From IMG/VR virus record IMGVR_UViG_3300030117_004768, positions 1 through 23,896 of that record: DNA of 23,896 nucleotides; one strand, written 5' to 3'. The position numbers were made by a program, and so were the translations under genes. Source of the stretch: a virus. The notes beneath the pieces are model-generated. The model was not told the origin of the DNA. It saw only the letters and a list, made by a program, of their open reading frames with translations, and searched no databases. Positions within the stretch are counted from its first letter, which is position 1; each line of letters starts with the position of its first letter. Positions 3,414 to 23,861 of the stretch are shown piece after piece.

Positions 3414-3416
3414 TCT

Positions 3417-4007
3417 CTATACGCGTCCCACGATTTCGTCGATGGCTCCTTTCTTCTCTCTTCGCGTGGGAGGGCTAACCTCTTCCTTCGCGTACGAGCT
3501 GACACCGCTTCCGAAATTTATATTGATGTCGACGTTAGCACCGTTCGCGCGCTTGTCCGCGTAGCGGTCTCTGTTCAGTGATTTCATTCTAAATATCCTC
3601 TCGGTGACGTTCTGTTTCAGCATCGCGTTTCGCGTGCTCACGCGTTCGAGCTCCATTAATTCGACCTCATCGGTGATTTTCCTAGCCAACGCGTAGGCTG
3701 ACTTGAAATGTTTATCTACGCGTAAGGCGATTGCTACGTCTGCCTTGCTTACTCCGACGAGCTCGCAAGCTTTGCTGATTGATACATTCCCTTCGGCAAT
3801 GAAGGTTTCGATGAGTTTTTGATATTGAGGTTCCAGCTTACGCGTAAGAGCCTCGATTCCTTTTTGGCTGTTTTGTGTCGGTAACAAATTTACAGAATTC
3901 GACTCTAAAGCCGACGGTTTAGTAGTTTTTTTGGATTTTTTTTCCAATTTCATGCTAAAATCTACCATTAGTGACGGCAATGATGCAACAAAATTATGAG
4001 TTAGCAC
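3417..4007 (-). CDS. terS: Terminase small subunit (DNA recognition)
   Basis: The small terminase recognises the packaging site and regulates the large subunit. The 196-residue frame has a poorly conserved basic N-terminus (1-50), a helix-turn-helix at about 75-98 (SISKACELVGVSKADVAIAL), a helical oligomerisation region (105-150) and a characteristic tail with FRMKSLNRDRYADKR followed by DININFG. This architecture matches small terminases that act with TerL of this type. The listed start is a GTG; in-frame ATGs at 3968 and 3953 are alternatives, and none has a strong SD, so the N-terminus is uncertain. The GTG falls inside a perfect palindrome at 4001-4015. The gene lies wholly within the CGCG-rich island. 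A pac-type phage would be expected to carry its packaging site in or near this gene. Confidence 0.85.
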   Translation of the reverse strand: MLTHNFVASLPSLMVDFSMKLEKKSKKTTKPSALESNSVNLLPTQNSQKGIEALTRKLEPQYQKLIETFIAEGNVSISKACELVGVSKADVAIALRVDKHFKSAYALARKITDEVELMELERVSTRNAMLKQNVTERIFRMKSLNRDRYADKRANGANVDININFGSGVSSYAKEEVSPPTRREKKGAIDEIVGRV

Positions 4008-4015
4008 GGTGCTAA
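4001..4015. promoter_or_regulatory. Perfect palindrome over the terS start
   Basis: TTAGCACGGTGCTAA is a 7+1+7 perfect inverted repeat built from two head-to-head copies of the motif that is over-represented throughout the window. It spans the GTG start of the small terminase, so a bound protein or an RNA hairpin here could influence terS expression. No regulator is proven. Confidence 0.4.
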
Positions 4016-4226
4016 TAGTGACGGGATTAACTAAATTTTCAAAAAGTCCTCTGATTTTGGTAAAATTTCCGATACATTAGGCAAGCTATACCGACGGCAT
4101 AGGAAAGTTAATGAAAAATAATCCTTGCAGAATATGATATTTATGATTAATTTAATTTCAGTGACCGACGGGACACCGACAACAACAAAACAACCCGACG
4201 AGACGTCGTCGAAAATGGAGTAAAAA
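4008..4226. promoter_or_regulatory. Divergent intergenic region between terS and the early operon
   Basis: This is 219 bases without a convincing gene, separating leftward late genes from the rightward operon. It contains the element at 4130-4142, a TTGAAA on the minus strand with an AT-rich hexamer about 17 bases downstream that could serve terS, and a series of GACG-containing sequences between 4160 and 4215 just before the first rightward gene. The ATG at 4227 has an SD (GGAG, spacing 7). This is the natural place for early promoters. Confidence 0.5.
4130..4142 (+). promoter_or_regulatory. Candidate promoter/operator element, copy 2
   Basis: GAATATGATATTT is preceded by CTTGCA and an A-rich run, and lies 84 bases upstream of the first rightward gene. 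The same order (A/T run, CTTGCA, GAATATGATATT) is found on the minus strand at 16872-16884. TATGAT inside the element resembles a bacterial -10 box, but I see no standard -35 hexamer at 17 bases, so an activated or phage-specific promoter, or an operator, is possible. Confidence 0.45.
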
Positions 4227-5036: not shown

Positions 5037-5080
5037 ATAAAGCAAAACATCGCCAAACGGCGGAAAGGAAAGCAAAATGA
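5021..5080 (+). CDS. Possible 19-codon basic leader peptide
   Basis: A short frame starts at an ATG in the loop of the 5001-5036 hairpin and ends with TGA overlapping the ATG of the ATPase gene (ATGA). The peptide would be MKSIIYKAKHRQTAERKAK. The SD is weak. The overlap arrangement is typical of coupling, but with so few codons chance is a serious alternative. Confidence 0.2.
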   Translation: MKSIIYKAKHRQTAERKAK

Positions 5081-6513
5081 AACCTACAATGGAAAGTAGC
5101 GTAAATGAAATGCGACGTTATTTGTCTCGGCAAATAGCCAACCAAACAATACCAACGACGGGGACACATCCAAGCGCCCCGAGCAAAGTTATCCGAATGG
5201 CTACCAAAGATAAACTTTGGGGCTGGATAAGCAACCACCGAATCGATTGGGCAAATTACGACTCCGACGGTGTAGTATTGTCCGAAGACTCAAGCTCTAA
5301 CGAGCAAAGCAGTTCTAGTAGTGACGAGGCTAGTGGAGAAAGCTCAACTAGCGAAGCTACAGAAGCTACAGAAGCTAGCGACAATGCTAACTCTGAAGAG
5401 TTAACCGAGGCTGTGCCTTTACCCGAAAAGCTGGACGGTATCAAGGGACTACCTTCGATGTCTTCACAAGGGGGTGACTGCAAATACATAACGACCAGTG
5501 GAGCAGTAGGTCTCGACGTACTACAGCAAGACTCGGGAACGGTCGCCTTATGTGATGACATAAGCACAACTCAGCACACAGTCAACGCCATTATCGACAG
5601 CAATGCTAATTTTAACAAGCTAGTCAAGAGGCAAGTGCTTAAAACCAATAGACGAGTTAACGAGCTTGCAAAGCAAGTAGACGACCTCGACGGTACTGGT
5701 AGCGTTAGCATCAAGATTAATGACGTCGAGATTAAGACTAATAGTGACGAGCATTATCACCCTAAGTTCGAGACGATAGCCAATTATCTCCGATGGGATA
5801 AACAAGTTATGCTTGTCGGTAGAGCTGGTACGGGTAAAACAACTATAGCACATCAGCTTGCTGATGCTTTCGGTGTTAAATTTGCTCACCTTAGCTGTTC
5901 AGCTGGAATGAGTGAAGCGCACTTGCTCGGTCGTATGTTGTTCGACGGTGAATATGTCATGGCAGATTTCGTCGATATCTATGAGAATGGAGGTGTGTTC
6001 CTCTTCGATGAGTTCGATGCTATGGACGGCAATACCGCAGTGGTAATTAACTCGGCATTAGCAAATGGTAAAATGAGCGTACCTAATAGAAAAGATAACC
6101 CGACAGCTTATAGGCACAAAGACTGCTACATTATTACCGCCTCTAATACTTGGGGCACTGGCTTCGGTGATGGCATTTATGCTGGACGTAATAAACTTGA
6201 CGGGGCTACACTTGACCGATTCTGTGCATCAAGGGTACACTTTGACTATGATACAAAGCTAGAGCGTAAGCTAGCACCGAATAAGGACGTAGCTAAGGCG
6301 CTTTGGAAACTACGTAAAATGGTCGAAAAGTACAAGTTGCAACGTATAGTGTCGACAAGACTATTCTTTACTGCTAACGTTCACACCAAAGGTGGCGAGT
6401 CAATCAAGGACTTTTTCAATACCGTTACTATTGATTGGACGGATGAAGAAAAAGCCAAGGTTGATATCGACGGTATCATTACATTAGCACAAGGGGGTAG
6501 CAATGAGTCATAA
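5077..6513 (+). CDS. MoxR/CobS-like AAA+ ATPase
   Basis: This 478-residue AAA+ protein has a long N-terminal extension. Residues 70-112 form a Ser/Glu/Thr-rich, probably disordered linker, and residues 170-205 look like a coiled coil. The AAA+ core has Walker A at 248-255 (GRAGTGKT), Walker B at 307-312 (VFLFDE), sensor 1 N357 (ITASNTWG) and a probable arginine finger R381 (ATLDRF). The sequence style is that of the MoxR/CobS and dynein-like AAA_5 group, whose members remodel partner complexes, usually with a von Willebrand A protein. The next gene overlaps by 11 bases and is a degenerate VWA-like protein, supporting this pairing; N4-like phages encode comparable pairs. SD AAAGGAA precedes the ATG. 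Target unknown. Confidence 0.88.
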   Translation: MKPTMESSVNEMRRYLSRQIANQTIPTTGTHPSAPSKVIRMATKDKLWGWISNHRIDWANYDSDGVVLSEDSSSNEQSSSSSDEASGESSTSEATEATEASDNANSEELTEAVPLPEKLDGIKGLPSMSSQGGDCKYITTSGAVGLDVLQQDSGTVALCDDISTTQHTVNAIIDSNANFNKLVKRQVLKTNRRVNELAKQVDDLDGTGSVSIKINDVEIKTNSDEHYHPKFETIANYLRWDKQVMLVGRAGTGKTTIAHQLADAFGVKFAHLSCSAGMSEAHLLGRMLFDGEYVMADFVDIYENGGVFLFDEFDAMDGNTAVVINSALANGKMSVPNRKDNPTAYRHKDCYIITASNTWGTGFGDGIYAGRNKLDGATLDRFCASRVHFDYDTKLERKLAPNKDVAKALWKLRKMVEKYKLQRIVSTRLFFTANVHTKGGESIKDFFNTVTIDWTDEEKAKVDIDGIITLAQGGSNES

Positions 6514-7435
6514 ACCATACATTCATGACAGTGTCGACGTCAGAGTCGTACATAAGAATGACGGCAAAAAATGTGACCCTCGAATGCTCATGTTACGAGA
6601 GTGGACTAACATATCTGAAATCATAGATTTCGTTGATAATTGCCCTCTTGATGCCTTCGGCAGAGATGACAATCATGAGAAAGGCTACGCCACCGATGTC
6701 GATGCTAACGTTAATAAAGGCTGGCGCTACGGTAATTTCAGAACGTTAAAGCGTACTCGTAAAGCGTTAGAGCAAGGTCGATGCTCAAATTTAGTCAAAG
6801 ACTATATCGAAGAGTATAGAAAAAAGCTAAAAGCCGACGGTCTTTATGACACTCCCGACGAGCTAAAAGATAGCGTTAAACGTCGACGAGTTTGGAGCGA
6901 AGAAGGTGCGGAACTTGACATAGACGCCGTCATGAGCGGTGACCCTAATTACTGGGTCAAGACAGTACGTAACGGCAAAATGCGAATAGTACGACTAGTC
7001 GTAAACTGGTCATTCAGTGGCGGTAATAGCTCATCTGAATCATCAAAACTGTTAGCACTGTGTTACTGTGTAGCAGAAGTATTAGAGCGACTCGGGTACG
7101 GTGTTGAAATATACGGCGCTCAGTACTGCTGGGCACCGCATACTTTTCAAGCTGACGGTGACAAGCATGAGCAAGGCAGTATTGTACCGTTAAAAACAGT
7201 ACAACAACCGCTTGACCTACAAAGAATAGGTAGCGCATCGATTACGGGACTATTTAGGTATTTCGGTTTCGTTATGGATAACGAGCTATTCGGTAATTTC
7301 AACGGTAGATGTGTATCACCGTCTAAAGAATGGTTAGCATATATAGGTACTGACGTTTTAATAGATACATCATGGTCTCGAGGCAACCAAACAACTAAAG
7401 TTAAAAAAATAATCGATAGATTAAAAGGAGCGTAA
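6503..7435 (+). CDS. VWA-like partner of the MoxR-type ATPase
   Basis: This 310-residue protein overlaps the AAA+ gene by 11 bases, with its own SD (GGGGG). The N-terminal 120 residues are charged and helical. From about residue 129 (RVWSEEGAELDIDAVMSG) the sequence follows a pattern seen in phage VWA-like proteins that travel with MoxR ATPases. The expected metal-ion-dependent adhesion site appears at 166-172 as VVNWSFS, where the canonical first Asp of DxSxS is Asn (N168). It continues with a helix and strand (LALCYCVAEVLERLGYGVEIYG) as in a Rossmann-like VWA fold. The substitution may weaken or abolish metal binding. By analogy it would recruit or present the substrate for the ATPase; substrate unknown. 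Confidence 0.65.
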   Translation: MSHKPYIHDSVDVRVVHKNDGKKCDPRMLMLREWTNISEIIDFVDNCPLDAFGRDDNHEKGYATDVDANVNKGWRYGNFRTLKRTRKALEQGRCSNLVKDYIEEYRKKLKADGLYDTPDELKDSVKRRRVWSEEGAELDIDAVMSGDPNYWVKTVRNGKMRIVRLVVNWSFSGGNSSSESSKLLALCYCVAEVLERLGYGVEIYGAQYCWAPHTFQADGDKHEQGSIVPLKTVQQPLDLQRIGSASITGLFRYFGFVMDNELFGNFNGRCVSPSKEWLAYIGTDVLIDTSWSRGNQTTKVKKIIDRLKGA

Positions 7436-10154: not shown

Positions 10155-10283
10155 ATGATTAGCATCGGAAACGAGCCTACTTGTTAAAGACGGGAATAAA
10201 AGCGCCCGCAGATTCATTCGAGAATCTTAACCAAGTGAAACCGCTTATAATGTAGGAACAACTCAAAGTACGGTGCTAATCAT
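10155..10283 (+). ncRNA. Candidate structured RNA closed by a 13-bp stem
   Basis: The ends pair: ATGATTAGCATCG (10155-10167) with CGGTGCTAATCAT (10271-10283), 12 Watson-Crick pairs and one U-G wobble in plus-strand RNA. Inside, ACTTGTTAA (10179-10187) pairs with TTAACCAAGT (10227-10236) with one bulged C; within that are CGGG/CCCG (10191-10194 with 10205-10208) and a 6-bp hairpin AGATTC/GAATCT (10210-10215 with 10222-10227, which shares its last base with the longer helix). An alternative CCTAC/GTAGG pairing also exists. The element begins 9 bases after the RHH stop and its 3' arm overlaps the end of the convergent VRR-NUC gene. I do not recognise a known RNA family. A 3' UTR element, terminator-like fold, processed small RNA or ribozyme are all possible. 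Confidence 0.5.
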
Positions 10284-10596
10284 TAATGATTATCCACTTA
10301 CTCAGTCCGTCCTTCACATCATTCACAGAACACGCCACAAAAGAAATCGCATTATGTCTTCTCTTCTCTGCTAACCACTCTTCTTGTATGCGCGTAGCTT
10401 TCTTTCCTTCACGCTTCACCTCAATCGCTATGTACGTACCATCGGGTGCGCACGCGACTATGTCACTCATGCCTCTACGCCCGTAAGTTCCAATCGTAAT
10501 TACATCAGCAGAAAATCCATGCTCTTTTAAGAATTTCATAATCTGATTCTGTATTTGTTTTTCTGTTAATTTTTTCTTTGTTTTCTTTATTTCCAC
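10276..10596 (-). CDS. VRR-NUC domain nuclease
   Basis: This 106-residue stand-alone VRR-NUC protein belongs to the PD-(D/E)XK nuclease superfamily. The N-terminal helix (TEKQIQNQIMKFLKEHGF) is followed by GRRGMSDIVAC (D45), the IEVK motif (E59, K61) and Q71 in RIQEEWLAEKRR. These are the catalytic Asp, Glu-x-Lys and Gln of the family. Length is typical of phage versions. Such enzymes cleave structured DNA such as junctions or flaps and often lie next to phage helicases and primases, as here. GTG start; GAGGG upstream can serve as SD, and lies within the repeat array. The 3' end overlaps the structured RNA element on the opposite strand. Confidence 0.92.
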   Translation of the reverse strand: MEIKKTKKKLTEKQIQNQIMKFLKEHGFSADVITIGTYGRRGMSDIVACAPDGTYIAIEVKREGKKATRIQEEWLAEKRRHNAISFVACSVNDVKDGLSKWIIIND

Positions 10597-10793: not shown

Positions 10794-13448
10794 TTACTCT
10801 TCATACATCTTTTTCGCTACTAATTTTGGAATATCAAAGACTCTTGCTTTACGAGTTACATCTTGTAGTCGCACTGCTTTATAGCCAATATAATAATCCA
10901 TTTTGCTAACTTGTTTAACAAATTCACTATGTGAAATTATCTCACCTTCAAAGCTAGTCTCCCTCGCCCACTTTTTAAACTTCGGGTAAATTGTTGGAGT
11001 ATGAAGATATAACTGAGTCTGTTCTAAGTTAGTGTCAATTACATCAGATTCCAATATCCCCGATTGCCTCATGACAAGCATTGCTTCCAATATATTGTCG
11101 ACAGCAGAGCGAGTCTCTCCTAAGATTGTCTGAGCTTCTAGCTGTGTATTCATAACAACTTCTTTCTCAGATTCTAATTTCAGGGGAATACCGTTAGCAT
11201 CGTAAAACTTCTCTAACAGGGTTAACCCTGTATTTATCATCGCTATGTTATGGCGAACCCTTCCATTGCCTTTAATATTATCTTTAAAGATTTGGAAAAG
11301 CTCCTCGTCTGACAGCGTTAAAGTCCAGTTTAAAATAGCATTACCAAGCTTGCTAATCGGCAACTTAGATAGTTTTATAAAGTTATCTAAGTATTGGTGC
11401 GCATCTAATTTATTAACAAATACGTCTGCGCTACGCTCTCGTAATGCGGGCTCATCAAACCCCATCTCACCTATAACAACTGCGGGTGCGTATATTTTAA
11501 ACTCTCTCGTGCTAAGGTCTTTCGTTCCTCTCATAGAACTCTCATTATCATATAAACCGCGAATCATCTTACTAATCATCTTAATTTTACTGTTGTCGAA
11601 CAGTGCTGGTTTATACTCGTCGTAAATGAGCGGGAACATATTTGTCGAAGAACCTAACGCTGTGAACGCAAAGTTAGTTATATCGTCAACCCTTAGCATA
11701 GGAGATATGTCTCCGAAGAAAGGTTGAATAAAATGTCGGGCGGTTTCGGACTTACCGCTCCCAGCTTGTCCGTGTATCATTAGCACGGGGAATCTCACAG
11801 AGTGTGATTCATATAATCTTTGCTTAACAAAGATACTGATACACCACCCGACAATAGTTGCACAAACAGATATGTCATTGAATTGAAATATGTACCTGAT
11901 AAAGTTTTTTAGCTCGTCCGCAGCGATGCTAACTTCAGGTGAAAAAGTCAACTCTTTCTTGACGGCAGGGTTGAAATATATAAAGTCTTCCCTTTGAGAA
12001 TTTTTGTCCCAACTCATCAACTGTGTTAGCACAATCCAATTTTTACTTAGTGGGTCTTTTACCATACCAACACTACTACAACCCTGTACCGAAGGTAACT
12101 TTGGATAGTGTTGATTTATATAGTCTAATACTCTCATTAAATCGTTCTCAGAACCGTACCACAATAGCTTATGATACAGGGACATAATCTTGCGTTTAAA
12201 CGCGGGCAGAGAAGATACGTCACCTGCATCAAAGCTAACGGACTTAATCATTTTATCGGGAGTAATTAAGTCCCATACTCTACTAATTTGGTCTTCTATG
12301 CGAACAACCCTCACAGGTTCAACAGTAAAAGTAGACAGCTCTTTATCTACTTTAGCACCTTCAATCCAATATCTACCCCTAGATTCGTAAACAGGTGTGC
12401 TAACCGAATTAGTTTTTATCCCTGCAACAGCAGGGGATTTATAAGGAACTTTCACATCGTCCTTAAAATCTGTGTTCTTCTGAATCCAATTATAAGTAAT
12501 TGGCTTCATTCCTTCACAGGACAGTATCTTTTGCTGAGTTAGCTTCCTATCGTACCGCCGGCTGTCAAGCGATGAGATATTATGGATTGCTTTGATTCCC
12601 TCGTCTCCGAAAGGTAGAAGGTTCGTTATGAGAGAAATCCAAGCGTTGTAATCAACTAAAGAGGGATTGTTCTTACACCATGAGATGAAAGGGTCATTGA
12701 GAACGTTAATTAACCCATCGGGAGCGTAGGTATACTCAATAGTATCTTGCTCGTATACAGCAGAGCTTTCAACTTCATTAAGTAAGTCCCACTTGTCCAA
12801 GAGAGTGTTTATGATTTCGGGTGTCAGCTTAACGACCTCGTCTAAAAATATCTCTATGTCAGAGACATCTTTAAATTTATAACCCTTTTCATCTATGAAG
12901 TGAGTCCCTTTGTCTATAAACATCGCACTGAAAGGCATATGGATTAAGTTTCCAAATCCTTTCGATGTTTCAAACAACCTATCCTGCGAAGGAAAAAATC
13001 TATCCATTGAGGAGAGCTTGTCAGCTCTACAAGCTAACAAGAATCCCCCCATTAGCCTCCTTGCCTTCCATGATTCAATTTCTTCTGAGAAGAAAAACCA
13101 TATATGCATTCCATTTCCAGACTTAGATACTTCTGCGTAGAAATGTATATTTAGCTCATCTGCTAACATATGCATGGCATTTAAAGCTTCTGTAGCCTCT
13201 TCTTTCTCTGACTCAGAATGAAAATCAAAGTCAGCAGATATCCATTTAGTTTTATTTCCTTCTAATAACGGATAAATTCCTATACCATAAAACTTCTTAT
13301 CCGTTACGTGCTTCTTAATTAATTCTTGTGTTATTTTCTTCTTTACGGACTTGTAAGCGTAGCGCTTTGTCCTTTTATCGTAGAAACATTCCGCGTACAC
13401 ATCATTACGTGCATGGAATAGCTCCATTAATTTTTTGTATGTTTTCAT
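10794..13448 (-). CDS. Primase-helicase: archaeo-eukaryotic primase domain fused to AAA+/SF3-like helicase
   Basis: This 884-residue protein probably primes and unwinds phage DNA. The N-terminal domain (about 1-185) has the AEP signature of the type also found in TOTE conflict systems. It carries GIGIYPLL, catalytic ADFD (D73, D75), SKSGNGMHIWFFF (H115) and later PSQ plus GNLIHMPF. A middle region (about 240-540) of unknown fold follows. The C-terminal ATPase has Walker A at 560-567 (GQAGSGKS), Walker B LIYDE (D610, E611), and R670/R672 in ALRERSADVF as likely arginine finger. I choose the ATG at 13448 (SD GGGGAG, spacing 6); a frame extension to 13487 runs through a hairpin and has no better start. 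The C-terminus abuts the GGTTAC array. Confidence 0.9.
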   Translation of the reverse strand: MKTYKKLMELFHARNDVYAECFYDKRTKRYAYKSVKKKITQELIKKHVTDKKFYGIGIYPLLEGNKTKWISADFDFHSESEKEEATEALNAMHMLADELNIHFYAEVSKSGNGMHIWFFFSEEIESWKARRLMGGFLLACRADKLSSMDRFFPSQDRLFETSKGFGNLIHMPFSAMFIDKGTHFIDEKGYKFKDVSDIEIFLDEVVKLTPEIINTLLDKWDLLNEVESSAVYEQDTIEYTYAPDGLINVLNDPFISWCKNNPSLVDYNAWISLITNLLPFGDEGIKAIHNISSLDSRRYDRKLTQQKILSCEGMKPITYNWIQKNTDFKDDVKVPYKSPAVAGIKTNSVSTPVYESRGRYWIEGAKVDKELSTFTVEPVRVVRIEDQISRVWDLITPDKMIKSVSFDAGDVSSLPAFKRKIMSLYHKLLWYGSENDLMRVLDYINQHYPKLPSVQGCSSVGMVKDPLSKNWIVLTQLMSWDKNSQREDFIYFNPAVKKELTFSPEVSIAADELKNFIRYIFQFNDISVCATIVGWCISIFVKQRLYESHSVRFPVLMIHGQAGSGKSETARHFIQPFFGDISPMLRVDDITNFAFTALGSSTNMFPLIYDEYKPALFDNSKIKMISKMIRGLYDNESSMRGTKDLSTREFKIYAPAVVIGEMGFDEPALRERSADVFVNKLDAHQYLDNFIKLSKLPISKLGNAILNWTLTLSDEELFQIFKDNIKGNGRVRHNIAMINTGLTLLEKFYDANGIPLKLESEKEVVMNTQLEAQTILGETRSAVDNILEAMLVMRQSGILESDVIDTNLEQTQLYLHTPTIYPKFKKWARETSFEGEIISHSEFVKQVSKMDYYIGYKAVRLQDVTRKARVFDIPKLVAKKMYEE

Positions 13449-13473
13449 TATTTCTCCCCGTGCAAGGTGTTGT

Positions 13474-13493
13474 GCGGGGGCTTTCACCCCCGC
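13474..13493 (-). promoter_or_regulatory. GC-rich intercistronic hairpin before the primase gene
   Basis: GCGGGGG (13474-13480) and CCCCCGC (13487-13493) form a perfect 7-bp stem with a 6-base loop. It lies 8 bases after the ssDNA-binding gene stop and ends 25 bases before the primase start. In the minus-strand transcript no U-run follows, so it is more likely an mRNA stability or processing element, or an attenuator, than a full terminator. Confidence 0.5.
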
Positions 13494-13501
13494 TTATTTA
13501 A

Positions 13502-14230
13502 CTAACTAAATATCTCGTCAACTTCTTTCTTTTTTGACCCGATATCTTTTCCGAACTCGTTATCTTTTTCCATCTCAGGACTGCTAACGAACTCTCTTGA
13601 TGATTCCCATAACTGCGCAGCCGTGCTAACATCAGCTTCTGACGCAGATGCTTTTGGCTGAGCTTTAGCTTGAATCACGTGGTATTTATTACCACTCTTC
13701 TCTTCAAGAGCAGAAGATATTTTAAAATAACTTCTCCATGAAGGTCTGATATACATAAGGTTAGCATTCAGATTCTTAGCGAACTTAGCTGAAGCACCTT
13801 TAAATGTTATCATAGCAGGCATTATAGAGTCTTTAATTAAGACTAGATAATGGTAGCTTTTAACTGCGTGAGAGCCATCTTCTTTCCATGCGAACTCTTT
13901 AGGATTAATCAAAGAGCCGTCTTCCCAATGTTTACCATCTCTGCTAAACTTCTTGACTTCTCTTCTGCCCGATTCACCTGCTTCGCCGAATACACGCGCA
14001 GTTGTGTAGTACGAAATAATAACGCATTCAAAGCTGTTACCGTATATTTCACCAGTTACGGGATTTACAAAATCCCCAGCCTTTACGTTTTCGCCCTCAA
14101 ATTCAGACATATCTGATATCTTTTGCCATAGTACAATACTAGGTATTCTAACATCTGATTTGTCTATATCCATTGCATAACCCTCTGGTATTGCTATGCT
14201 ACTATTTTGCTTTGTTATTTTATCACTCAT
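13502..14230 (-). CDS. Candidate single-stranded DNA-binding protein
   Basis: This 242-residue protein lies next to the primase. The N-terminal half has the pattern IPSIVLWQKISDMSEFEG, then KAGDFVNPVTGEIYG and a strand-rich core (FECVIISYYTTARVF, YHYLVLIKDSIMPAMITFKG) compatible with an OB-type beta barrel. The C-terminal quarter is low in complexity and ends with an acidic, Ser/Glu-rich tail finishing VDEIFS, reminiscent of the acidic protein-interaction tips of phage and bacterial SSBs. Similar proteins occur beside phage primases and are often left unannotated. SD AAGGAT precedes the ATG. The function is inferred from composition, tail and context rather than a decisive motif. Confidence 0.55.
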   Translation of the reverse strand: MSDKITKQNSSIAIPEGYAMDIDKSDVRIPSIVLWQKISDMSEFEGENVKAGDFVNPVTGEIYGNSFECVIISYYTTARVFGEAGESGRREVKKFSRDGKHWEDGSLINPKEFAWKEDGSHAVKSYHYLVLIKDSIMPAMITFKGASAKFAKNLNANLMYIRPSWRSYFKISSALEEKSGNKYHVIQAKAQPKASASEADVSTAAQLWESSREFVSSPEMEKDNEFGKDIGSKKKEVDEIFS

Positions 14231-14233
14231 TGT

Positions 14234-14656
14234 TTATCCTTTTTTTCTTATTGTTAACTTTTCAAAACTATCAAATTCAGCACTCTTTGGCATAGGCAGT
14301 TGTCCTTCCATAACCATTCTGTGAATCTCTTGTACTCCACCTAAATTAAGTTGGCGCCTTAGCACGAACTCAACATCGTTTCTAGTACAGAACTTTTGGA
14401 ATGCTTGATAGTCACTTACTTTCATTGTGACAACTCTTTCTTTCCAACACGTACCCGCTCCGTCTACGCTAACTATTTCCGACTTTTCTTCGTCTTCCGC
14501 GATAGAGAGGTCTTTCGTGATTTCTTCGTTGACCCTTTTGAGCTCGTCTTTGAACGGCTTCGAGAGGGCTTCTTTTTGGTCGATTTCGTCTTTGATTTCG
14601 CGCCAGTAGATGATTTTTTCTTTGAGCGTGAGCTCTTCTGTGTCTTTGAACTGCAT
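14234..14656 (-). CDS. Unknown replication-module protein (140 aa)
   Basis: The N-terminal half is a charged helical region (residues 1-60). The C-terminal half has a conserved-looking block with GAGTCWKERVVTMKVSDYQAF, FVLRRQLNLGGVQEI, and the ending FEKLTIRKK, a pattern I associate with uncharacterised phage proteins of replication modules. I choose the ATG at 14656 because of its SD (AAGGAG, 8 bases away); a frame extension to 14698 has none. Its 5' end overlaps the H1-like frame by 184 bases. Codons in the overlap are visibly GC-richer than in the rest of the gene. Function unknown; Gam-like or recombination roles cannot be shown. Confidence 0.72.
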   Translation of the reverse strand: MQFKDTEELTLKEKIIYWREIKDEIDQKEALSKPFKDELKRVNEEITKDLSIAEDEEKSEIVSVDGAGTCWKERVVTMKVSDYQAFQKFCTRNDVEFVLRRQLNLGGVQEIHRMVMEGQLPMPKSAEFDSFEKLTIRKKG

Positions 14657-14745
14657 TTTTTCGTCTCCTTCTTCGTTTCTTTTTTTTCTGTCCCCCATAT
14701 TAAATCCATGAGGTCTTGTAATATGTCTTGTACGCTTTTACTCAT
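14473..14745 (-). CDS. Possible overlapping gene encoding an H1-like Lys/Ser-rich protein (90 aa)
   Basis: This frame starts at an ATG with an excellent SD (AAAGGAG, spacing 9) and overlaps the upstream zinc-ribbon gene by 8 bases. Residues 1-19 are helical and amphipathic (MSKSVQDILQDLMDLIWG); residues 20-90 are almost only Lys, Ser, Thr and Arg, like histone H1-type or bacterial Hc1-like tails. From 14656 on it shares DNA with the 140-residue gene in another frame. The strong start and 30 unique codons support real translation. The tail could, however, be a by-product of Asp/Glu/Lys-rich codons read out of frame. If real it would bind nucleic acid non-specifically. Confidence 0.5.
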   Translation of the reverse strand: MSKSVQDILQDLMDLIWGTEKKETKKETKKCSSKTQKSSRSKKKSSTGAKSKTKSTKKKPSRSRSKTSSKGSTKKSRKTSLSRKTKKSRK

Positions 14746-14893
14746 TGTTGTCTTCTCCTTTGTAAAACTCTACATAGGCATTACAATTAGGGCAAGTGAA
14801 GTTAGAAACTATACCTTCTCCTTCTAATCCATAGTCTTCATAAGTATGGTCTCCACCCCATATTAGCACCGTCTTACAATGCCAACAATTCAT
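14738..14893 (-). CDS. Small zinc-ribbon protein (51 aa)
   Basis: A 51-codon frame encodes a protein with two CxxC knuckles: C3/C6 (CWHC) and C34/C37 (CPNC), separated by 27 residues. This is a classical zinc ribbon, a fold used for nucleic-acid or protein contacts. It begins with ATG overlapping the preceding stop (ATGA) and has AAAGG about 10 bases upstream; its stop overlaps the next start (ATGAGTAA). It sits between the SNF2 helicase and the H1-like frame. Small phage zinc-ribbon proteins are common and mostly of unknown function. Confidence 0.75.
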   Translation of the reverse strand: MNCWHCKTVLIWGGDHTYEDYGLEGEGIVSNFTCPNCNAYVEFYKGEDNNE

Positions 14894-14958
14894 GGTAAAT
14901 AGAACCTTTGCTGGTTAACGAATGTTGGGTTTTTATTGCCGTCAAAACTATCTACCAT
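14890..14958 (-). CDS. Possible 22-codon ORF between helicase and zinc-ribbon genes
   Basis: A short frame begins at ATG directly after the helicase stop (TAAATG), with AAAGGTG as a possible SD, and ends on the zinc-ribbon ATG (ATGA). The product would be 22 residues without a recognisable motif. The coupling pattern on both sides supports translation, but the peptide may serve only to carry ribosomes to the next gene. Confidence 0.35.
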   Translation of the reverse strand: MVDSFDGNKNPTFVNQQRFYLP

Positions 14959-16611
14959 TTACTTATCACCTTTGATATCTTCTATCATTGAATAGACCAT
15001 ATCATTTAGTCCTTGTTTTTTCATAACGGCTTTATAAACTCTAAAGTCCACGCTTTTATCAGCACACAAAAATGTGTAATTGCACGTTTTAGATTGCCCA
15101 ATCCTATGAATCCTTTCTTGGGATTGATATAAATCATCAAGAGAATAAGACAAAGAGTAGTATATAACGTTAGAACAGTTAGTGAAAGTAAGACCATACT
15201 TAGCACTCTGAACGTTAGCAAACAAAATACGCGCATCACCGCTTTTAAATCTTTCAATAGCTTCTTGTTGCGAGGTAACTGATTGTCCTCCGTGTATAAA
15301 TGCTCCATCTTTATATAACTCCTTGAATATTGCTATCTCTCCTTTATAAGTGCAGTAAACAATAACCTGCTCTTCTGCTAACTCACCCATTAGCATGGAT
15401 TCTAGCTCTTTGTTTTTAGCGTTATGAAATTCTGTAAAAGTTTTATCACCGTCGTCCTCATGATAAACAAAACCGCTTGTTATCTGTGACAGCTTCTGTA
15501 ACTTAGCACCCGCATTTACAGCAGTGATAGTTTTATCGTCTATCTCTGTTATAAATTGCTTTGCCATTTCATCATAAAATTTTTTCTGTTCCCTTGTCAT
15601 AGGAATCTTTCGTATATTATATATTTTCTCCGGCAAATCTAAACAATCATCTTTCTTATGTCTTATAACTAATCTTTCTATCTTAGAAGTTATTGCTTCA
15701 AAGCCTTTCTTTTTAGGCACCCATTCTTTATTCATATAAGAAAACGGATTTGGGGTAAAATATTTATGTCTAAATTGATAAAACGAACCTCCTAGTAAAC
15801 TAGGCTCTACTATATTAAAAGGTGAATATATCTCCATTAAGTTGTTTGGAGTTATAAGACCCGATATAATTATTCTATTTGGTATAATTCTAGATAACTC
15901 AGTAACTCTTTTTGTCCATTTAGCACTAGGATTTTTTAATCTCACAGCTTCATCGCATACCATCATGTCATAGCCTTCGTCCTCAAAGGTAAACTTTGTA
16001 TGTAAGGATTCATAATTAGTAACATATATGTTAGCATCAGAGTTAAAAGCCTCTAATTTCTTCTCGGCAGTGCCCACCGCAGCAACTATTTTTAAGTGAG
16101 GATAAGTCTTATTACAATCGGCTATCCAACTGCTCTGTATAATACTTTTCGGACAAATAACCAAGACTTTTATTTTATTATTCTCTTCCCAGTGCTCATT
16201 GATAACAGAAAGAGTAGCTATAGTCTTGCCCGTCCCGCAGTCGGAAAGGTCTGCATAACTGCCTCTAGTTTTCCCAAATAATCGAGTCTGATTTTGATGT
16301 CCATATAATATATGATTATCATCTTTAGGTAGGTCTGTAAACCCTGCGCGTTTGTACGCGCCCGCGCTATTTTCTATAAACATAAGCTCATCATATACCT
16401 TGCTTAAAGCAGGAGAGAATGTAATATTTAAATCTAAGAGAGCTTTACATATAGGTAGTGTTGGCTCTATAAAATACCAATACTTCTCTTTTTTATTCCA
16501 TAAAGCACCTACAAGCTTAACTCTATCCTTGTACTCAAAAGGTACGTCTAAAGCTATTTCTCTTGTTTGAGGGTCGTATTTTGCAGTAATTATATTAGAT
16601 TGTGTCGTCAT
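14959..16611 (-). CDS. SNF2-type (SF2) DNA helicase/translocase
   Basis: This is a 550-residue ATP-dependent DNA translocase. The N-terminal domain (about 8-60, with ALWNKKEKYWYF) resembles the HARP-like module of SMARCAL1-type proteins that grips branched DNA. The SF2 core follows with motif I at 124-130 (DCGTGKT), motif Ia region (VLVICPKSIIQSSW), motif II DEAV at 220-223 instead of the usual DEAH, and motif III as IIISGLITPNN instead of LTGTP. The C-terminal lobe has YCTYKGEIAIF, GLTFTNCSNVIYY and motif VI SQERIHRIGQ. Phage SNF2 proteins probably act in replication or recombination. It overlaps the histone-fold-like gene by 17 bases; the SD is weak, consistent with coupled translation. Confidence 0.92.
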   Translation of the reverse strand: MTTQSNIITAKYDPQTREIALDVPFEYKDRVKLVGALWNKKEKYWYFIEPTLPICKALLDLNITFSPALSKVYDELMFIENSAGAYKRAGFTDLPKDDNHILYGHQNQTRLFGKTRGSYADLSDCGTGKTIATLSVINEHWEENNKIKVLVICPKSIIQSSWIADCNKTYPHLKIVAAVGTAEKKLEAFNSDANIYVTNYESLHTKFTFEDEGYDMMVCDEAVRLKNPSAKWTKRVTELSRIIPNRIIISGLITPNNLMEIYSPFNIVEPSLLGGSFYQFRHKYFTPNPFSYMNKEWVPKKKGFEAITSKIERLVIRHKKDDCLDLPEKIYNIRKIPMTREQKKFYDEMAKQFITEIDDKTITAVNAGAKLQKLSQITSGFVYHEDDGDKTFTEFHNAKNKELESMLMGELAEEQVIVYCTYKGEIAIFKELYKDGAFIHGGQSVTSQQEAIERFKSGDARILFANVQSAKYGLTFTNCSNVIYYSLSYSLDDLYQSQERIHRIGQSKTCNYTFLCADKSVDFRVYKAVMKKQGLNDMVYSMIEDIKGDK

Positions 16612-16855
16612 ATTCTAGATTCATTCCCTTTAAACTTTTTACATACTGTTTTTCTATAAGGGCATAAATCTGTTCAGACTTTAGTCGCTTAATCTTATGT
16701 TTCTTGACATCATTACATAAGTCTTTTAGAATATTCTCTAAATGCATTTGAAGCGCATAGATAGCACCTGCGGAAATTTGTATACCTTCCTCATTAGCAT
16801 ATCTTTTAATTTGCTTGATTTTTAAAAGTCTTGGTTGTCTATCACCTCTGCCCAT
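16595..16855 (-). CDS. Histone-fold-like small protein (86 aa)
   Basis: The sequence has the layout of an archaeal-type histone. After a basic N-terminus (MGRGDRQPRL) comes a short helix (LKIKQIKRYANEEG), loop 1 (IQIS), a long central helix (about 29-54, AGAIYALQMHLENILKDLCN) and a basic loop 2 (KIKRLK). A last helix follows (SEQIYALIEKQYVKSL). Spacing of hydrophobic positions and the S/A after loop 1 fit the fold, and histone-fold proteins are known from some bacteria and viruses. It would bind and compact or bridge DNA as a dimer. Its gene is coupled to the SNF2-type helicase. No SD precedes the ATG, which lies just 17 bases from the promoter-like element at 16872-16884. Homology has not been tested. 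Confidence 0.55.
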   Translation of the reverse strand: MGRGDRQPRLLKIKQIKRYANEEGIQISAGAIYALQMHLENILKDLCNDVKKHKIKRLKSEQIYALIEKQYVKSLKGMNLEYDDTI

Positions 16856-16871
16856 GAAGCAAAGTTACAAC

Positions 16872-16884
16872 GAATATCATATTC
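16872..16884 (-). promoter_or_regulatory. Candidate promoter/operator element, copy 3
   Basis: The minus strand reads GAATATGATATTC, a perfect 6+1+6 palindrome except for the central base, preceded by CTTGCATT and a T-rich run. It shares CTTGCA and GAATATGATATT with the plus-strand element at 4130-4142. It lies between the lysozyme-like gene and the histone-fold-like gene and could start the replication-module transcript with a very short leader. Confidence 0.45.
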
Positions 16885-16899
16885 AATGCAAGAAAAAAA

Positions 16900-17904: not shown

Positions 17905-18480
17905 CTAGGTTGGGTTAGCATCTGTGGTATATGTCAGTTCTTTTTGTCTTAAATAAACTTCGTCTAAAAACATAATATCGCCTACATTATTAGCAACTAT
18001 ACCTATTGTACAAAACGCTCCTGCGCCGGGAGAAACCCATGAAAGAGAAAACCCTTGAACCCATTTTCCCTCTATCATATTAGAAGAGTCTATACCTATG
18101 ACGCCTGAATAAGCGAGGTCAGTATTATATGCAGTACTTCCTATAGCAACAACATATCCTGTAGGTTCAGCAGTCGACGGTACGGTAGGTATTAACACTT
18201 TAAAGCTTAATTCGTATTCCCTACCAGTCGCTAAACTTACATTGGTAAAACACGTTTTACATAATCCTGTCCCTGTCCCTGTTAGCTTAATAGAGTTAGC
18301 ACCAGTAGAACTATATTCTGTTGACTGAGTTATTAAGCAGTTTAAGTTATCGGCTGGATTACTAGTATTGTCCCTCCATTGGTTTGCACCCTCACCTATA
18401 GATACGGTAGAGCCTGTAGAGAAAGCGTTAGACTGTTTATTGTCTCCATAAAACTTAGGGTCAACTCTATATGTTGTCAT
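17905..18480 (-). CDS. Beta-sandwich virion-type protein, possible receptor or glycan binding
   Basis: This 191-residue protein is rich in Ser, Thr, Gly and Asn. After a variable N-terminal segment, residues 55-182 follow the pattern of carbohydrate-binding jelly-roll modules: ANSIKLTGTG, REYELSFKVLIP, YVVAIGS, then KWVQGFSLSWVSPGAG, FCTIGIVANN and the ending DIMFLDEVYLRQKE. Such modules occur in phage fibre, tail-tip or head-decoration proteins. The start overlaps the stop of the giant protein gene (TAATG), so it is translated with it. No catalytic motif; binding target unknown. Confidence 0.6.
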   Translation of the reverse strand: MTTYRVDPKFYGDNKQSNAFSTGSTVSIGEGANQWRDNTSNPADNLNCLITQSTEYSSTGANSIKLTGTGTGLCKTCFTNVSLATGREYELSFKVLIPTVPSTAEPTGYVVAIGSTAYNTDLAYSGVIGIDSSNMIEGKWVQGFSLSWVSPGAGAFCTIGIVANNVGDIMFLDEVYLRQKELTYTTDANPT

Positions 18481-21400
18481 TATTGTTTCTCCTGCTCTTC
18501 TCTTAATAACATTTCATAATTTTGCTTAGCATCAAAAAGCTTGCCTTCGTATGCCTCTGGGTCTAATTCTTTTAGCTGTTGGAATACTCTGTATTGTAAA
18601 AAGGCTCGATTTATCTCTGCGCTTGAGACCTGTGTCATTACTTGACCCGTAGATTGCTTATAAAAAGTCTCAAAATCTTTTCCACCCAAATCGTCGCTTG
18701 AAGCAATATAACTGTAATCTCTTTGAGGATTCAAAAGAAACTCAGTTTCTAAATCGTATTTTTCTATAAATTTTGATGCTTGGGTTTCACCTAAGCCTTT
18801 TACAATCTTATCAATCATTTTCAATTTACCTTTTTGCAAGACTCTAGTCTTGTTTTCGTCAGAATCAACTCCACCCGTCCATCTATCTGCTAACTTCAGG
18901 TTTCCATTTTTATCTAAATTTAGTTTTAGCTCTTCTCTTCCTTCGCTATTTCTTATAATTCTACCATCTTCATCTCTAGCGTAATCAAATATCATGTTGT
19001 CAAGTAGAAAAATAAAATTATTTTGCCCAGCAGCAGCGTTTATTAAATATTTATCTATCCTGCTAAGAGGTAGTTGAGCTATTGTTTTTCTATTCTCTTC
19101 AAATAAATTCATCTCGTTAAGTCTTAGCAGTTCATCTGTCACAAGATTTCTAGCTTGCTGATAGAACTTAGGATTCTCCATTACTTTTGCAAATTTATCA
19201 GGCACATTGCCCCAAAAATTCTTAATTTCAGCCTGATTCATTGTGTTGATACCGTAAAGGGAGCCATAACCTTGCTTCCTAACAACAGGCTCACCAAATA
19301 TATCTAGTCTAGGTAAGTTCATTGTATAGTCATTAAAGAAGTCTTTACCCATAATTAAATCTGAAATATTTGATAGACGTGCTCTAGCTTCTTCTTCCGA
19401 TATACCGTCTTTTTGCATTACCTCAGCAATCATAGACTCTCTTTTTTCGTTAGCAGCAGCCTTTAAACCATCTAGAGTAGACTTAGCTGTCTCGCCTCCA
19501 AACAACTCTCCATAACCAGTTATAAATTGTTTTTCAAAATTTCTCCAAAGAATATTTGTGTCAGTAAATACACTGTATTTACTCGGGTTAACTATATTAA
19601 CCTGTCTATACCCTTCTGTTTTTTCATTATAATCATTACTTTCGTAATAATAAGGGTCTATAATAGTACCATATGTAGAAATCATATTTGGCATAAAAAT
19701 ACCTCTACCTAACTCCATTAGAAAATCTACACCGGTAGTTCTGCCTGAAAAAAGGTCTCCAAATTCATCTAATCCGCTTAAAAATGGGTTTTCTAAGAAA
19801 GCTAAGCCCAAAGCTACCATAGCGTTTTCACCTCTTTTATAAGCGCTCTCGTCGCCGCTTCCGTCCATTATACCGCCTATCATAGACAAAACTTCGTTGT
19901 GAGGAGAAAACCCTCTTGTGCTTATAGTTTCCACTGTACCCGCATCGTCGTATCTAACCAAATCTCCGGGCTTTATTCCTTTAATTTCGTAAACCTGTTT
20001 TTCGCTATCGCTCAACATCTTGTAAGGTTTAGCAATAAACCAACCTCTATAACCTTCTTCGTTAGCCTCCTCTAATGGGGCAGGAGTTCCGTCTGACAGA
20101 TAACCCCCATACATATTATTTGCCATAGAATACAGAGTGTATCCAAACAAACTACCTGTTGTCTGTTTAGCTGAAACGTCTGCAAATATACCCCAATCTC
20201 CATACTTTACACCTCTACCTATACCACTTAACCCATCCTTGCTTAAAAAGCCTAATCCGGGCGTTCTTTGTGCGATAGTTTTACTTATATTTACAGGAGT
20301 GTTAAAAAACGGTACCCAAAATTGAAGAAAGCTACCAAAATTTCCACTACGAGTCTTGCCAAACGCTTGACCTAACTGTCCAAGCTTTGCTTGGAACGTA
20401 GAATATTCAGCGCTTGCTATAGCCTCATTAACTATTCTTGCAGGAGGGTCTTTCATTAAAGCGTCAAATTGATTTTTAAACTCTTTTGTCCCGGGCTTTA
20501 AATTTTGTTTTCTTAAATACCTATATATATACTGTGCAACAAAACCCTCTTCTGCTGGCTGTCTAAAAAATATATCCAATGCAGCTTGACTTCTTTGTGG
20601 AGTCCTTATTATTTTACCCCAAGCCCCGCCAATAACTCCTTCAGGTGCGAACCGTTCTTTTTTATAAAAAGCATCTGTCTTTAAATAGTTTATATCTTCA
20701 AACATCATAGCTCGAATATTGTTATAAACAGTACCATTTTCTCCTCTATACTTACCACCAAAATAAGAGTTAAATGTAGCTTTTGTATATGCTAACGATT
20801 CTCCGAAGAAACGAGACCTTTCAGGTGTGACCTTTAATGCATCAGGAAGGTCTTCCCACTTCTTACCTGTTAGCTTTGAGTATACCCATGCGCTCGGCTT
20901 TCTTCCAAGGGGAGTAAATGCATATCTATCAATATTTGTTAGCACCGCGTCATAGAACCCTGAGATAGGCTTATCTGTATAAAGGAGGGCTTGGTTTGTT
21001 GCGTTTCCAAAAGTACCTCTAACTAAAGACCCTATAGAAAACAGCTTAGCATTCCTAGAAACCTCTACTAATGCATTAATTTTATTATTAAACCAACTAG
21101 CGCTTTTCGGAGCATCCTTCCCTGCAAACCTTACTGCCATCTCATCTAACAAAATATTTCCCCGAGCTGTATAAAGCTGCCCTTCATTAAAAATCATTGC
21201 AGCATCGTCTGACATAGGTTTTTTCGATATATTTAACAATCTACCAGCATTTCCACTGTGCGAGGTTAAGGCATTGAAAAACTGCCTCATCTGTGCTAAG
21301 CCAGCTTCGTATTCGCTCATTTTCATCTTATTTAGATTATTAACATGATTTCTGGTCATAGCAACTAATATTCTTTCCGCAGCTACATATTCAACATCTG

Positions 21401-23861
21401 TAAATAAAAACTTTCCACTTTTAAAGTCGGCTTCTGTTGCATTAACTACTTTTTGTATCACAGACCTGATAACTTCTGGTTGTACAGACTCCTCATCAAC
21501 GGTAGTCCAATTTCTTTTACCTAGAGCTCTAATCTCTTTATTCGCTTCTTTACCTAAAAATCTACCAAGATTTGCTATATAGTTTCTTACATTTACATCT
21601 TCAATTTTATCTAGATTAATATTCCCAGTGTAGTTATAAGACTCATCCATTTTACCAGCAGGAGGAGTAGGCTCTCCGCCTTTGCCCGTAGGCTTATTAG
21701 TTGCCATCTGATTAGCTTTTCTAATGTTATCTTGAATAACTTTAAATTTAGAATTATAGGCATCACCCATAAATCTTCTTAATAAATCGTTGTCGTCTTT
21801 ATTTAATTTATTTCTACCAAAAAAAGCTTTAGTGAGGCTATTCCAGTTATTATCTAGGTATTTCTGCCAAGCATATAAGTCCTTATTCATATAATCAGGG
21901 TCGGCTATAAATTTCTGTAATAAGTTACCAATAACCTCATCTAGCTCATTTGCAACTAAATCAAGGTTTTTAGGAGTCACGCCTTCTTTTTTAAGCTTAG
22001 CGTCGATACTCTTTTTCTTCTTATCGTCCATTTTGCCTTTCTTAAAAATAGTAGATAAAAACTTCCTTCCTTCTGGAGCTGCTAACACTGATATTAAATG
22101 CTCTTGAACATCTCCTCCTAGCTTAGCTACTTCTCTTGAGTGATATGGCTGAGCTATACTTCCAGCGCTACCGAAAGTATTTAAAAAATTGTTTCTCTGG
22201 ATTTGAAAATCTACTATTTTATTCTTGCTCCAATTATAGCCTTTATAACCTCCGTAGGCAACAAAAGGAGATATCATCAGACCGTCAAATGCTAACTCTC
22301 CCCAAAGCCTAGACATTTCTTGGTTGTTTTGCTCGCTATCTGGTAAATTGGAATAAGTTACAATATCACTTATCTTATTGCCGCTATCCCATGCTAACCC
22401 TCCAAATATAGAATACCCTACAACTTTAACGGCTTTATCATAAAAAGCAGGGCTGCTTTGTGCTAACGCTTGAAACCCTTTTGTTCCGAGTACAGTCATA
22501 CCTACATTTAACGGAGTAACCAACTCTCCACCTTTTTGACCTACAGTAGTCAAGCCTTTCATAAATCTAGTCCAACCTCCTACATCCATAGACATAGCAT
22601 CCATAGGTAACAATCCTTGGTCGTCCATATCTTTAACAAACTTTGCAATCTTTTCGTCATTATATAGTATATTCTGATTAAACCAATCTTCAAAAACTGA
22701 ACGACTAGACCATACCTCGCCCCCTAAAGCCTCTCTCCACATTTGAGGGCTAAATATAAGATTAGCCACATCACTTAGCAGATTGTTAGACCAAGAATCT
22801 GTCAGAGTTTTTAATTTAAAATACTCTTTCATACCTAGCGAGCCACCAGCATCTACTTCTTGCATTTGTTTTTTACTTCCAGAGACAGCTCTTTCTCCAT
22901 ATTCTTTTGTCCAAGAGTCTTCAAAAGACCTAAATTCTTCCATTATGCTATTTATATTGTTTTGACCAGCGTAGGCGTCGTCTAGTTCTTGCAACCTGTT
23001 TTTACCGTCCTGCTCGTTAAAGGCAGTATTTGCTAGGAAAAACTTTAAATTTCTTAAATATCTAGCCTGACTCTTAACATCGTTCATTGTTAGCACATCG
23101 CCTGTTTCTAAGTCGTTCTTGCTATATTTTGAGCCATCCTCCCAGCCATTATAATAATAAAACTCGTCTTTACTTAATGGAGACCAGTTTGGGTTGCCTT
23201 CTGTGTATTGCAAATACATATCATATGCTTCAGACCTATTAGGTACAGTAAAGTCTCCTCTCTTGTCAAAATAAGTGTCGACCAATCCCTTCATCAATCT
23301 TATAACTTCTCTCTTATTTTCATCTCCATAAAGAGTATTGAATGCTACAATTTCAGCTTGAACTTTTTGCATCTCATGCTCCATAGCATAAGGACTAACC
23401 CAATTAGGGTCATCTAAGTTAGCACCTCTTTCAATGCCTTGCAGCCAATCAATTTTTTGCTTTATTTTATTCCAAGCAATATATTTATCAGTACCAACTT
23501 CCATGCTTGTTCCGTCAGAATACTCAGCTATTATTTTATCAGGAACGCTATGGGTTCTCTCTATACTTAAAACAGTTCTGCCTAAGTCATCTATATCCCT
23601 TACAACCTCAAAAACATCTTCACTAAATATCTCAGATATAGGCATTCCATCATCAGGATTAACCCACCTCATCACTCCTTTTTGTATACTAGTACCCCTA
23701 CCAGAAAGAATTTCTGTCATGCTAACATCACCATTTTCTATAGATTTTAACAAAACAGGGTCTTTATAGATTTCATCTGGAGTAAGATTAACAGGTTCGC
23801 TATATATAAAAGTATTGCTAAGAGGTATTTTGCCAGCCTCATAATAGTCTTTTAAAGCCAT
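18480..23861 (-). CDS. Giant internal-virion/ejection-type protein (1793 aa or longer)
   Basis: This very large, mainly helical protein has a hydrophobic stretch at about residues 445-500, a basic low-complexity region near 635-750, and a segment near 1170-1200 (SFLQFWVPFFNTPVNISK, followed by RTPGLGF) that resembles the domain found in 'large polyvalent' phage proteins and podovirus internal virion proteins. These are thought to enter the host with the DNA. I see no convincing RNA polymerase, protease or lysozyme motif. SD GGAG lies 5 bases before the ATG at 23861, which supports this start, but the frame is open for the remaining 35 bases to the window edge, so an N-terminal extension cannot be excluded. 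Confidence 0.75.
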   Translation of the reverse strand: MALKDYYEAGKIPLSNTFIYSEPVNLTPDEIYKDPVLLKSIENGDVSMTEILSGRGTSIQKGVMRWVNPDDGMPISEIFSEDVFEVVRDIDDLGRTVLSIERTHSVPDKIIAEYSDGTSMEVGTDKYIAWNKIKQKIDWLQGIERGANLDDPNWVSPYAMEHEMQKVQAEIVAFNTLYGDENKREVIRLMKGLVDTYFDKRGDFTVPNRSEAYDMYLQYTEGNPNWSPLSKDEFYYYNGWEDGSKYSKNDLETGDVLTMNDVKSQARYLRNLKFFLANTAFNEQDGKNRLQELDDAYAGQNNINSIMEEFRSFEDSWTKEYGERAVSGSKKQMQEVDAGGSLGMKEYFKLKTLTDSWSNNLLSDVANLIFSPQMWREALGGEVWSSRSVFEDWFNQNILYNDEKIAKFVKDMDDQGLLPMDAMSMDVGGWTRFMKGLTTVGQKGGELVTPLNVGMTVLGTKGFQALAQSSPAFYDKAVKVVGYSIFGGLAWDSGNKISDIVTYSNLPDSEQNNQEMSRLWGELAFDGLMISPFVAYGGYKGYNWSKNKIVDFQIQRNNFLNTFGSAGSIAQPYHSREVAKLGGDVQEHLISVLAAPEGRKFLSTIFKKGKMDDKKKKSIDAKLKKEGVTPKNLDLVANELDEVIGNLLQKFIADPDYMNKDLYAWQKYLDNNWNSLTKAFFGRNKLNKDDNDLLRRFMGDAYNSKFKVIQDNIRKANQMATNKPTGKGGEPTPPAGKMDESYNYTGNINLDKIEDVNVRNYIANLGRFLGKEANKEIRALGKRNWTTVDEESVQPEVIRSVIQKVVNATEADFKSGKFLFTDVEYVAAERILVAMTRNHVNNLNKMKMSEYEAGLAQMRQFFNALTSHSGNAGRLLNISKKPMSDDAAMIFNEGQLYTARGNILLDEMAVRFAGKDAPKSASWFNNKINALVEVSRNAKLFSIGSLVRGTFGNATNQALLYTDKPISGFYDAVLTNIDRYAFTPLGRKPSAWVYSKLTGKKWEDLPDALKVTPERSRFFGESLAYTKATFNSYFGGKYRGENGTVYNNIRAMMFEDINYLKTDAFYKKERFAPEGVIGGAWGKIIRTPQRSQAALDIFFRQPAEEGFVAQYIYRYLRKQNLKPGTKEFKNQFDALMKDPPARIVNEAIASAEYSTFQAKLGQLGQAFGKTRSGNFGSFLQFWVPFFNTPVNISKTIAQRTPGLGFLSKDGLSGIGRGVKYGDWGIFADVSAKQTTGSLFGYTLYSMANNMYGGYLSDGTPAPLEEANEEGYRGWFIAKPYKMLSDSEKQVYEIKGIKPGDLVRYDDAGTVETISTRGFSPHNEVLSMIGGIMDGSGDESAYKRGENAMVALGLAFLENPFLSGLDEFGDLFSGRTTGVDFLMELGRGIFMPNMISTYGTIIDPYYYESNDYNEKTEGYRQVNIVNPSKYSVFTDTNILWRNFEKQFITGYGELFGGETAKSTLDGLKAAANEKRESMIAEVMQKDGISEEEARARLSNISDLIMGKDFFNDYTMNLPRLDIFGEPVVRKQGYGSLYGINTMNQAEIKNFWGNVPDKFAKVMENPKFYQQARNLVTDELLRLNEMNLFEENRKTIAQLPLSRIDKYLINAAAGQNNFIFLLDNMIFDYARDEDGRIIRNSEGREELKLNLDKNGNLKLADRWTGGVDSDENKTRVLQKGKLKMIDKIVKGLGETQASKFIEKYDLETEFLLNPQRDYSYIASSDDLGGKDFETFYKQSTGQVMTQVSSAEINRAFLQYRVFQQLKELDPEAYEGKLFDAKQNYEMLLREEQEKQ

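Follow-up and report, generated by a model that had tools for sequence, protein, structure and literature searches.

Schwab et al. (2024, PMC11390915) have already defined phage histones as part of the alpha3 family, and two eukaryotic systems provide precedents for the pairing of a histone fold with a motor protein: the Swi2/Snf2 domain of Mot1 contacts the NC2 histone fold (PMC4565979), and FANCM/Fml1 gains a DNA-binding site from MHF (PMC6952179). The present analysis concerns a minus-strand locus in the first 23,896 nucleotides (hereafter the window, whose coordinates are used throughout) of IMG/VR record IMGVR_UViG_3300030117_004768, the 26,386-base record of an uncultivated bacterial virus with phage terminase and structural genes. 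Within this locus, hist86 (16595-16855), an 86-aa protein with a predicted histone fold, is followed by an SNF2-family DNA translocase of 550 aa (14959-16611) and by an 'H1-like' protein of 90 aa rich in Lys, Ser and Arg (14473-14745, isoelectric point (pI) 11), and the presence of these three open reading frames (ORFs), as given in a preliminary description read from the DNA alone, was confirmed. Four related contigs, L001, L002, L003 and L008, were available for comparison. A search of the papers available for the analysis found no description of a phage operon pairing a histone-fold protein with SNF2, and although phage histones are known, this arrangement, which includes a basic protein overprinted on a further gene, appears to be new.

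Predicted fold of hist86 and its pairing with SNF2

AlphaFold2 monomer models were built from the four sequences of the hist86 family, namely hist86 itself, its homologues in L001 and L002 (92-93% identity) and the 71-aa homologue in L008 (37% identity). The hist86 model contains helices at residues 13-22, 29-52 and 60-77 with a predicted local distance difference test (pLDDT) score of 72, and the L008 homologue, used as a second target, gave helices at 12-21, 28-51 and 59-70 with a pLDDT of 84, rising to approximately 90 in the core. The models of these divergent homologues therefore share three helices in a short-long-short arrangement joined by two loops, as in the histone fold, bearing out the histone helix spacing that had been noted for the 86-residue protein. 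The fold search proposed at the same time placed histone-fold entries of the PDB at the head of both Foldseek lists, at ranks 1-14 for the hist86 model, but with E-values of at least 0.4, and at all 50 of the 50 top hits listed for the L008 model, whose best match was DNA-bound HLp, a bacterial histone (E 0.02, probability 1.00, TMt 0.74). Solved histone folds were thus matched above unrelated folds, clearly with the L008 model and more weakly with that of hist86.

Evidence from the sequence profiles is weak, and agrees in direction with that from structure. A hidden Markov model search of the PDB returned only six weak hits, among them NC2-alpha, TADA1 and histone H4; alignment to archaeal histones with hhalign fell in the expected register and was beaten by one of 300 column-shuffled controls; and the Pfam Histone family scored E 0.034 and 14.8 bits on hist86 against a cut-off of 26.4. 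The PF00808 profile, run on the phage's own genome, gave no match. Similar phage proteins of 64 aa are present in BFVD. Taken with the models, hist86 very probably adopts a histone fold. The protein is net positive (17 K/R versus 11 D/E, pI 9.5), and codon changes between the window and L001 comprise 28 synonymous and six nonsynonymous cases. The predicted fold places the conserved basic residues K51, K52 and R57 (motif VKK-x-K-I-x-R-L) in loop L2 and the last part of helix 2, the edge through which histones contact DNA.

The resemblance to alpha3 phage histones, as these are described, extends to small size, occurrence in tailed phages, sequence beyond helix 3, absence of the RxTxxxD motif and a middle helix 4-5 residues shorter than usual, that of hist86 having 24 residues, approximately four fewer than nucleosomal histones, with a four-residue gap in the hhalign alignment. 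Unlike alpha3 phage histones, which have a helix 3 of 3-4 residues and a C-terminal tetramerisation helix, the monomer models here have a third helix of 12 (L008) or 18 (window) residues, which could represent helix 3 fused to an extension, and the C-terminal extension of hist86 is short and is absent in L008. SNF2 is unmentioned in the account of the alpha3 phage histones (PMC11390915). The closest solved folds are those of HLp from Leptospira and HBb from Bdellovibrio (VIA-align Z 5.5 for the latter), but these are cellular proteins that bind host chromosomes, identity to them is approximately 17%, and the R55/D62 clamp of HLp is missing in hist86. To our knowledge, neither HLp nor HBb has an SNF2 neighbour.

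The translation of the adjoining gene carries the Pfam domains SNF2-rel_dom (E 1.4e-31) and Helicase_C (E 4.7e-14), matches PHROG 62 (DNA helicase, E 2e-113) and contains the motifs DCGTGKT and QSQERIHRIGQ, which place it in the SNF2 family of translocases, as had been proposed. Its supposed 'HARP-like' N-terminus appears to be a resemblance only, since residues 20-46 matched DUF5710 (E 1.9e-7, above the cut-off) and no HARP family match was obtained in Pfam at E<=1. The hist86 gene and the start of the SNF2 gene overlap by 17 nt in the window, and a hist86 homologue lies directly upstream of and overlapping the SNF2 gene in all three relatives covering the site (L001, L002 and L008). The SNF2 proteins of L001-L003 are 93-96% identical to that of the window, and that of L008 is 56% identical; as the overlap recurs in the distant L008 as well as in L001 and L002, the pairing has been maintained, and because linkage is kept at approximately 37% (hist86) and 56% (SNF2) protein identity, a functional pairing of the two proteins is likely. 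Among the annotated phages inspected, a nuclease (of VRR type in two) or nothing related occupied the slot before SNF2.

Two further observations concern the SNF2 protein itself. In L002, the SNF2 frame (2373-4018) is broken into two ORFs of 127 and 403 aa, through either a frameshift or an assembly error. Matches of the SNF2 protein to ZorD and DpdE in PADLOC were rejected, as they reflected only the shared motor.

Possible role of the pair and competing explanations

The locus has an operon-like order on the minus strand, with hist86 and SNF2 followed by a zinc-ribbon-like ORF, the H1-like protein, a 140-aa gene, a Pam3 gp34-like protein, a PrimPol and a VRR nuclease. This content (SNF2, PrimPol and nuclease) indicates a role in replication and recombination. 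Together with the precedents of NC2-Mot1 and MHF-FANCM, it leads us to favour, at roughly even probability, hist86 as a DNA-binding cofactor or substrate of an SNF2 translocase acting at forks or in recombination, over compaction for packaging. Under such a mechanism, hist86 would be made just before SNF2, probably with translational coupling, would dimerise by the histone handshake and would use the start of helix 1 and the basic loop L2 to bind DNA, either duplex or branched. The dimer could then serve the SNF2 motor as a DNA-binding partner, or as a protein:DNA substrate, at forks or recombination intermediates, presumably through physical or functional contact as in MHF/FANCM and NC2/Mot1. 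The likeness to NC2-Mot1 lies in the pairing of a histone-fold protein with a Swi2/Snf2 ATPase, NC2-alpha (4wzs_A) being also the top, non-significant PDB profile hit, although NC2 acts as a heterodimer together with TBP, the phage has no TBP, and the present pairing is one of genes. MHF1-MHF2 (CENP-S/X) likewise serves a fork-remodelling SF2 translocase, FANCM/Fml1, as a histone-fold cofactor, but this is a works-like analogy only, given that MHF, a heteromeric complex, is bound by a region of FANCM and that FANCM lies outside the SNF2 family. A more far-reaching proposal, held tentatively and as rather doubtful, is that the locus encodes a minimal phage chromatin-remodelling module, in which a homodimeric histone fold would be the dedicated partner, or the substrate, of the SNF2 motor, with the overprinted basic protein acting in a linker-like manner, and in which a bacterial virus would have paired histone and remodeller independently.

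Several results weigh against a histone-fold partner of SNF2. The Foldseek E-values, taken singly, were 0.02-0.4, none reaching E<=0.001, and a common helical arrangement can score so; the best VIA-align Z values (4.9 for hist86 and 6.6 for L008) were below 8 and insufficient alone for proof; no Pfam histone match exceeded the cut-off for hist86; and the RxTxxxD motif is replaced, at the hhalign-aligned positions, by I55, R57 and Q62. The hist86 family comprises only four members, all from IMG/VR: no match was obtained when hist86 and its L008 homologue were compared by tblastn with 50,697 annotated phage records, no relative when patterns from the histone and SNF2 alignments were scanned across 84,980 genomes, and no further member when the hist86 profile was run on the ORFs of four annotated-phage SNF2 loci and of L010 and L011. 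Co-transcription alone would also account for the linkage of hist86 with SNF2, although some phages have a VRR nuclease in that slot. The non-significant structural and sequence scores would be expected if hist86 were an ordinary small three-helix protein that matches histones through a widespread arrangement of helices, but this is very improbable given that histone-fold entries form an unbroken series for the better L008 model, reaching a probability of 1.00, and that the profile evidence falls in the same register.

If the fold is accepted, the pair could instead constitute a form of phage chromatin, as the preliminary description had suggested, with hist86, and the H1-like protein as linker, coating or compacting the DNA of the phage in the course of infection or packaging, and SNF2 evicting hist86 for transcription, replication or packaging. 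Such a role would be in keeping with the pairing of a histone fold with SNF2, the very basic H1-like tail, the capacity of HLp to wrap approximately 60 bp and of HBb to bend DNA (PMC12701072), and the suggestion that moraphage genomes are compacted by an H1-like protein (PMC12619734). It is nevertheless unlikely: the histone fold and its conserved linkage to SNF2 hold, but the genes lie in a replication operon without a link to the virion, which points away from virion chromatin, hist86 lacks RxTxxxD, the H1-like protein lacks an H1 or Hc1 domain, and SNF2 proteins are common in phages (matched in 2,475 of the 50,697 phage records), mostly without a known partner of the hist86 kind.

A different function is raised by a 27-bp near-palindrome, TTGCATTGAATATGATATTCGTTGTAA, on the minus strand just upstream of hist86 (16865-16891) at the operon head. 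A core of 20 bases is shared with L001, L002 and the distant L008, where the element lies at 2289-2315, and was found, among viral contigs, in this family only. The element is probably the promoter or operator of the replication operon; a scan for consensus promoters showed no excess and missed it. A hist86 dimer might bind it as a transcription factor of NF-Y/NC2 type and autoregulate the operon, the SNF2 link then reflecting co-transcription or removal of hist86 by SNF2. The conservation of the element from the window to L008 is compatible with this, but it could be bound by any host or phage regulator, an extra ORF splits it from the histone gene in L008, and studied bacterial histones bind DNA non-specifically (PMC12701072), so autoregulation by hist86 is improbable. 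Distinctly improbable too is a role in host take-over or protection, in which the H1-like protein, with or without hist86, would condense the DNA of the host or protect that of the phage against nucleases, independently of SNF2; the extreme K/S/R tail, conserved in composition rather than sequence, would suit it, but the tight coupling to replication genes would not.

These results suggest that a reduced form of the eukaryotic histone-and-remodeller pairing is in use in some phages. Targets are known for few of the abundant phage SNF2 proteins, and a conserved histone-fold partner would provide a small, testable two-protein system and a hint at how histone/remodeller pairs arise outside eukaryotes.

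The H1-like frame and its overlap with the 140-aa gene

The H1-like protein consists of a conserved N-terminal helix-like segment, SVQDILQDLMDLIWG, and a disordered-looking K/S/R tail. Its name describes composition only, as no linker-histone, Hc1 or PF07432 domain was matched in Pfam or NCBIfam. Like the PF07432 proteins of moraphages and Hc1 of Chlamydia (PMC12619734), it is short, Lys-rich and very basic; unlike them, it has no matching domain, and its tail is composed of Ser, Lys and Arg and is overprinted on another gene. It is nonetheless a real, conserved coding frame, kept in all three contigs reaching the site (L001, L003 and L002, the last as far as its contig runs), with a start at or just past the SNF2 stop in each, an AGGAG Shine-Dalgarno sequence just 5' of the start in the window, and conservation of the first 30 residues, which include SVQDILQDLMDLIWG and lie outside the overlap. 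The frame is therefore maintained, as the preliminary description had made its proposal depend on, but the tail is not free-standing: it shares 61 codons, in a different frame, with the start of the 140-aa gene (14234-14656), giving a dual-coding stretch at 14476-14656.

Within this overlap, the third positions of the 140-aa gene show a C:T ratio of 24:1, compared with 10:22 outside it (Fisher p 4e-7), and the same skew is present in L001 and L003. The C fraction of 0.96 exceeds the maximum of 0.70 found among 61-codon stretches of eleven other genes. Each third position of the 140-aa gene there falls at the second position of an H1-like codon, so the skew fits selection against hydrophobic residues in the tail. 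When synonymous codons for the 140-aa gene were drawn from the phage's own usage (n=20,000), the second frame remained open in 0.02% of draws, and the observed tail count of 53 K/R/S/T residues (recoding mean 28) was reached in none of the 20,000, so that the basic composition of the tail has very likely been selected. Five of the seven changed tail codons between the window and L001 alter the H1-like residue, on which account only composition and openness of the frame look to be under selection. The overlap thus provides a clean case of a basic, disordered tail selected in the second frame of a replication gene.

The 140-aa gene is 96-99% identical in L001 and L003 and matches PHROG 13900 (E 1e-6) along its length. 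Because of this full-length match, the 140-aa frame is probably the older, and the H1-like tail would have arisen by overprinting of its start. A longer ORF from 14698 is possible, but the start at MQFKDTE, with its own AAGGAG site, is preferred. In the replication setting favoured above, the H1-like protein could supply a second basic, flexible DNA-binding tail, and its short conserved helix may dock it to a replication protein.

Low synonymous divergence in the overlap was dropped as a test of dual coding, as the part of the 140-aa gene beyond it is just as conserved, with third-position divergence of 0.08-0.13 in both parts compared with 0.22-0.34 in SNF2 and the Pam3 gp34-like gene (g242). 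Silent sites of the 140-aa gene are accordingly far more conserved than those of its neighbours, also beyond the overlap, with approximately 90 nt identical in three contigs, and recombination or a further constraint is a possible source.

Other genes of the operon and window

The zinc-ribbon-like ORF between the SNF2 and H1-like genes (14738-14893, minus strand, 51 aa, CxxC...CxxC) is confined to the window phage, tblastn against L001-L003 giving no match, and its DNA has a local match of 78-80% to the marine single-cell viruses AG-345, which together suggest acquisition by transfer. The operon of L008 has a different cysteine-rich ORF at 2343-2669. Beyond the 140-aa gene, the same strand encodes the 242-aa Pam3 gp34-like protein g242 (13502-14230, PF23977, E 1.2e-12), the 897-aa PrimPol (10794-13487), which has an AEP-TOTE primase (PF22548, E 1.1e-36) and a C-terminal helicase-like region, and, at the operon end, a VRR-NUC or Holliday-junction-resolvase-like nuclease (10276-10596, PF08774, E 1.4e-8; PHROG 93, endonuclease). 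Elsewhere in the window, a minus-strand gene at 18480-23861 encodes a 1793-aa protein with no PHROG match, probably a large virion protein. On the strand opposite to the operon (5077-7435), an AAA ATPase with a CobS-like match (PHROG 249, E 1e-45) is followed by a 310-aa protein (PHROG 1909), and the two are perhaps a CobS/CobT-like pair.

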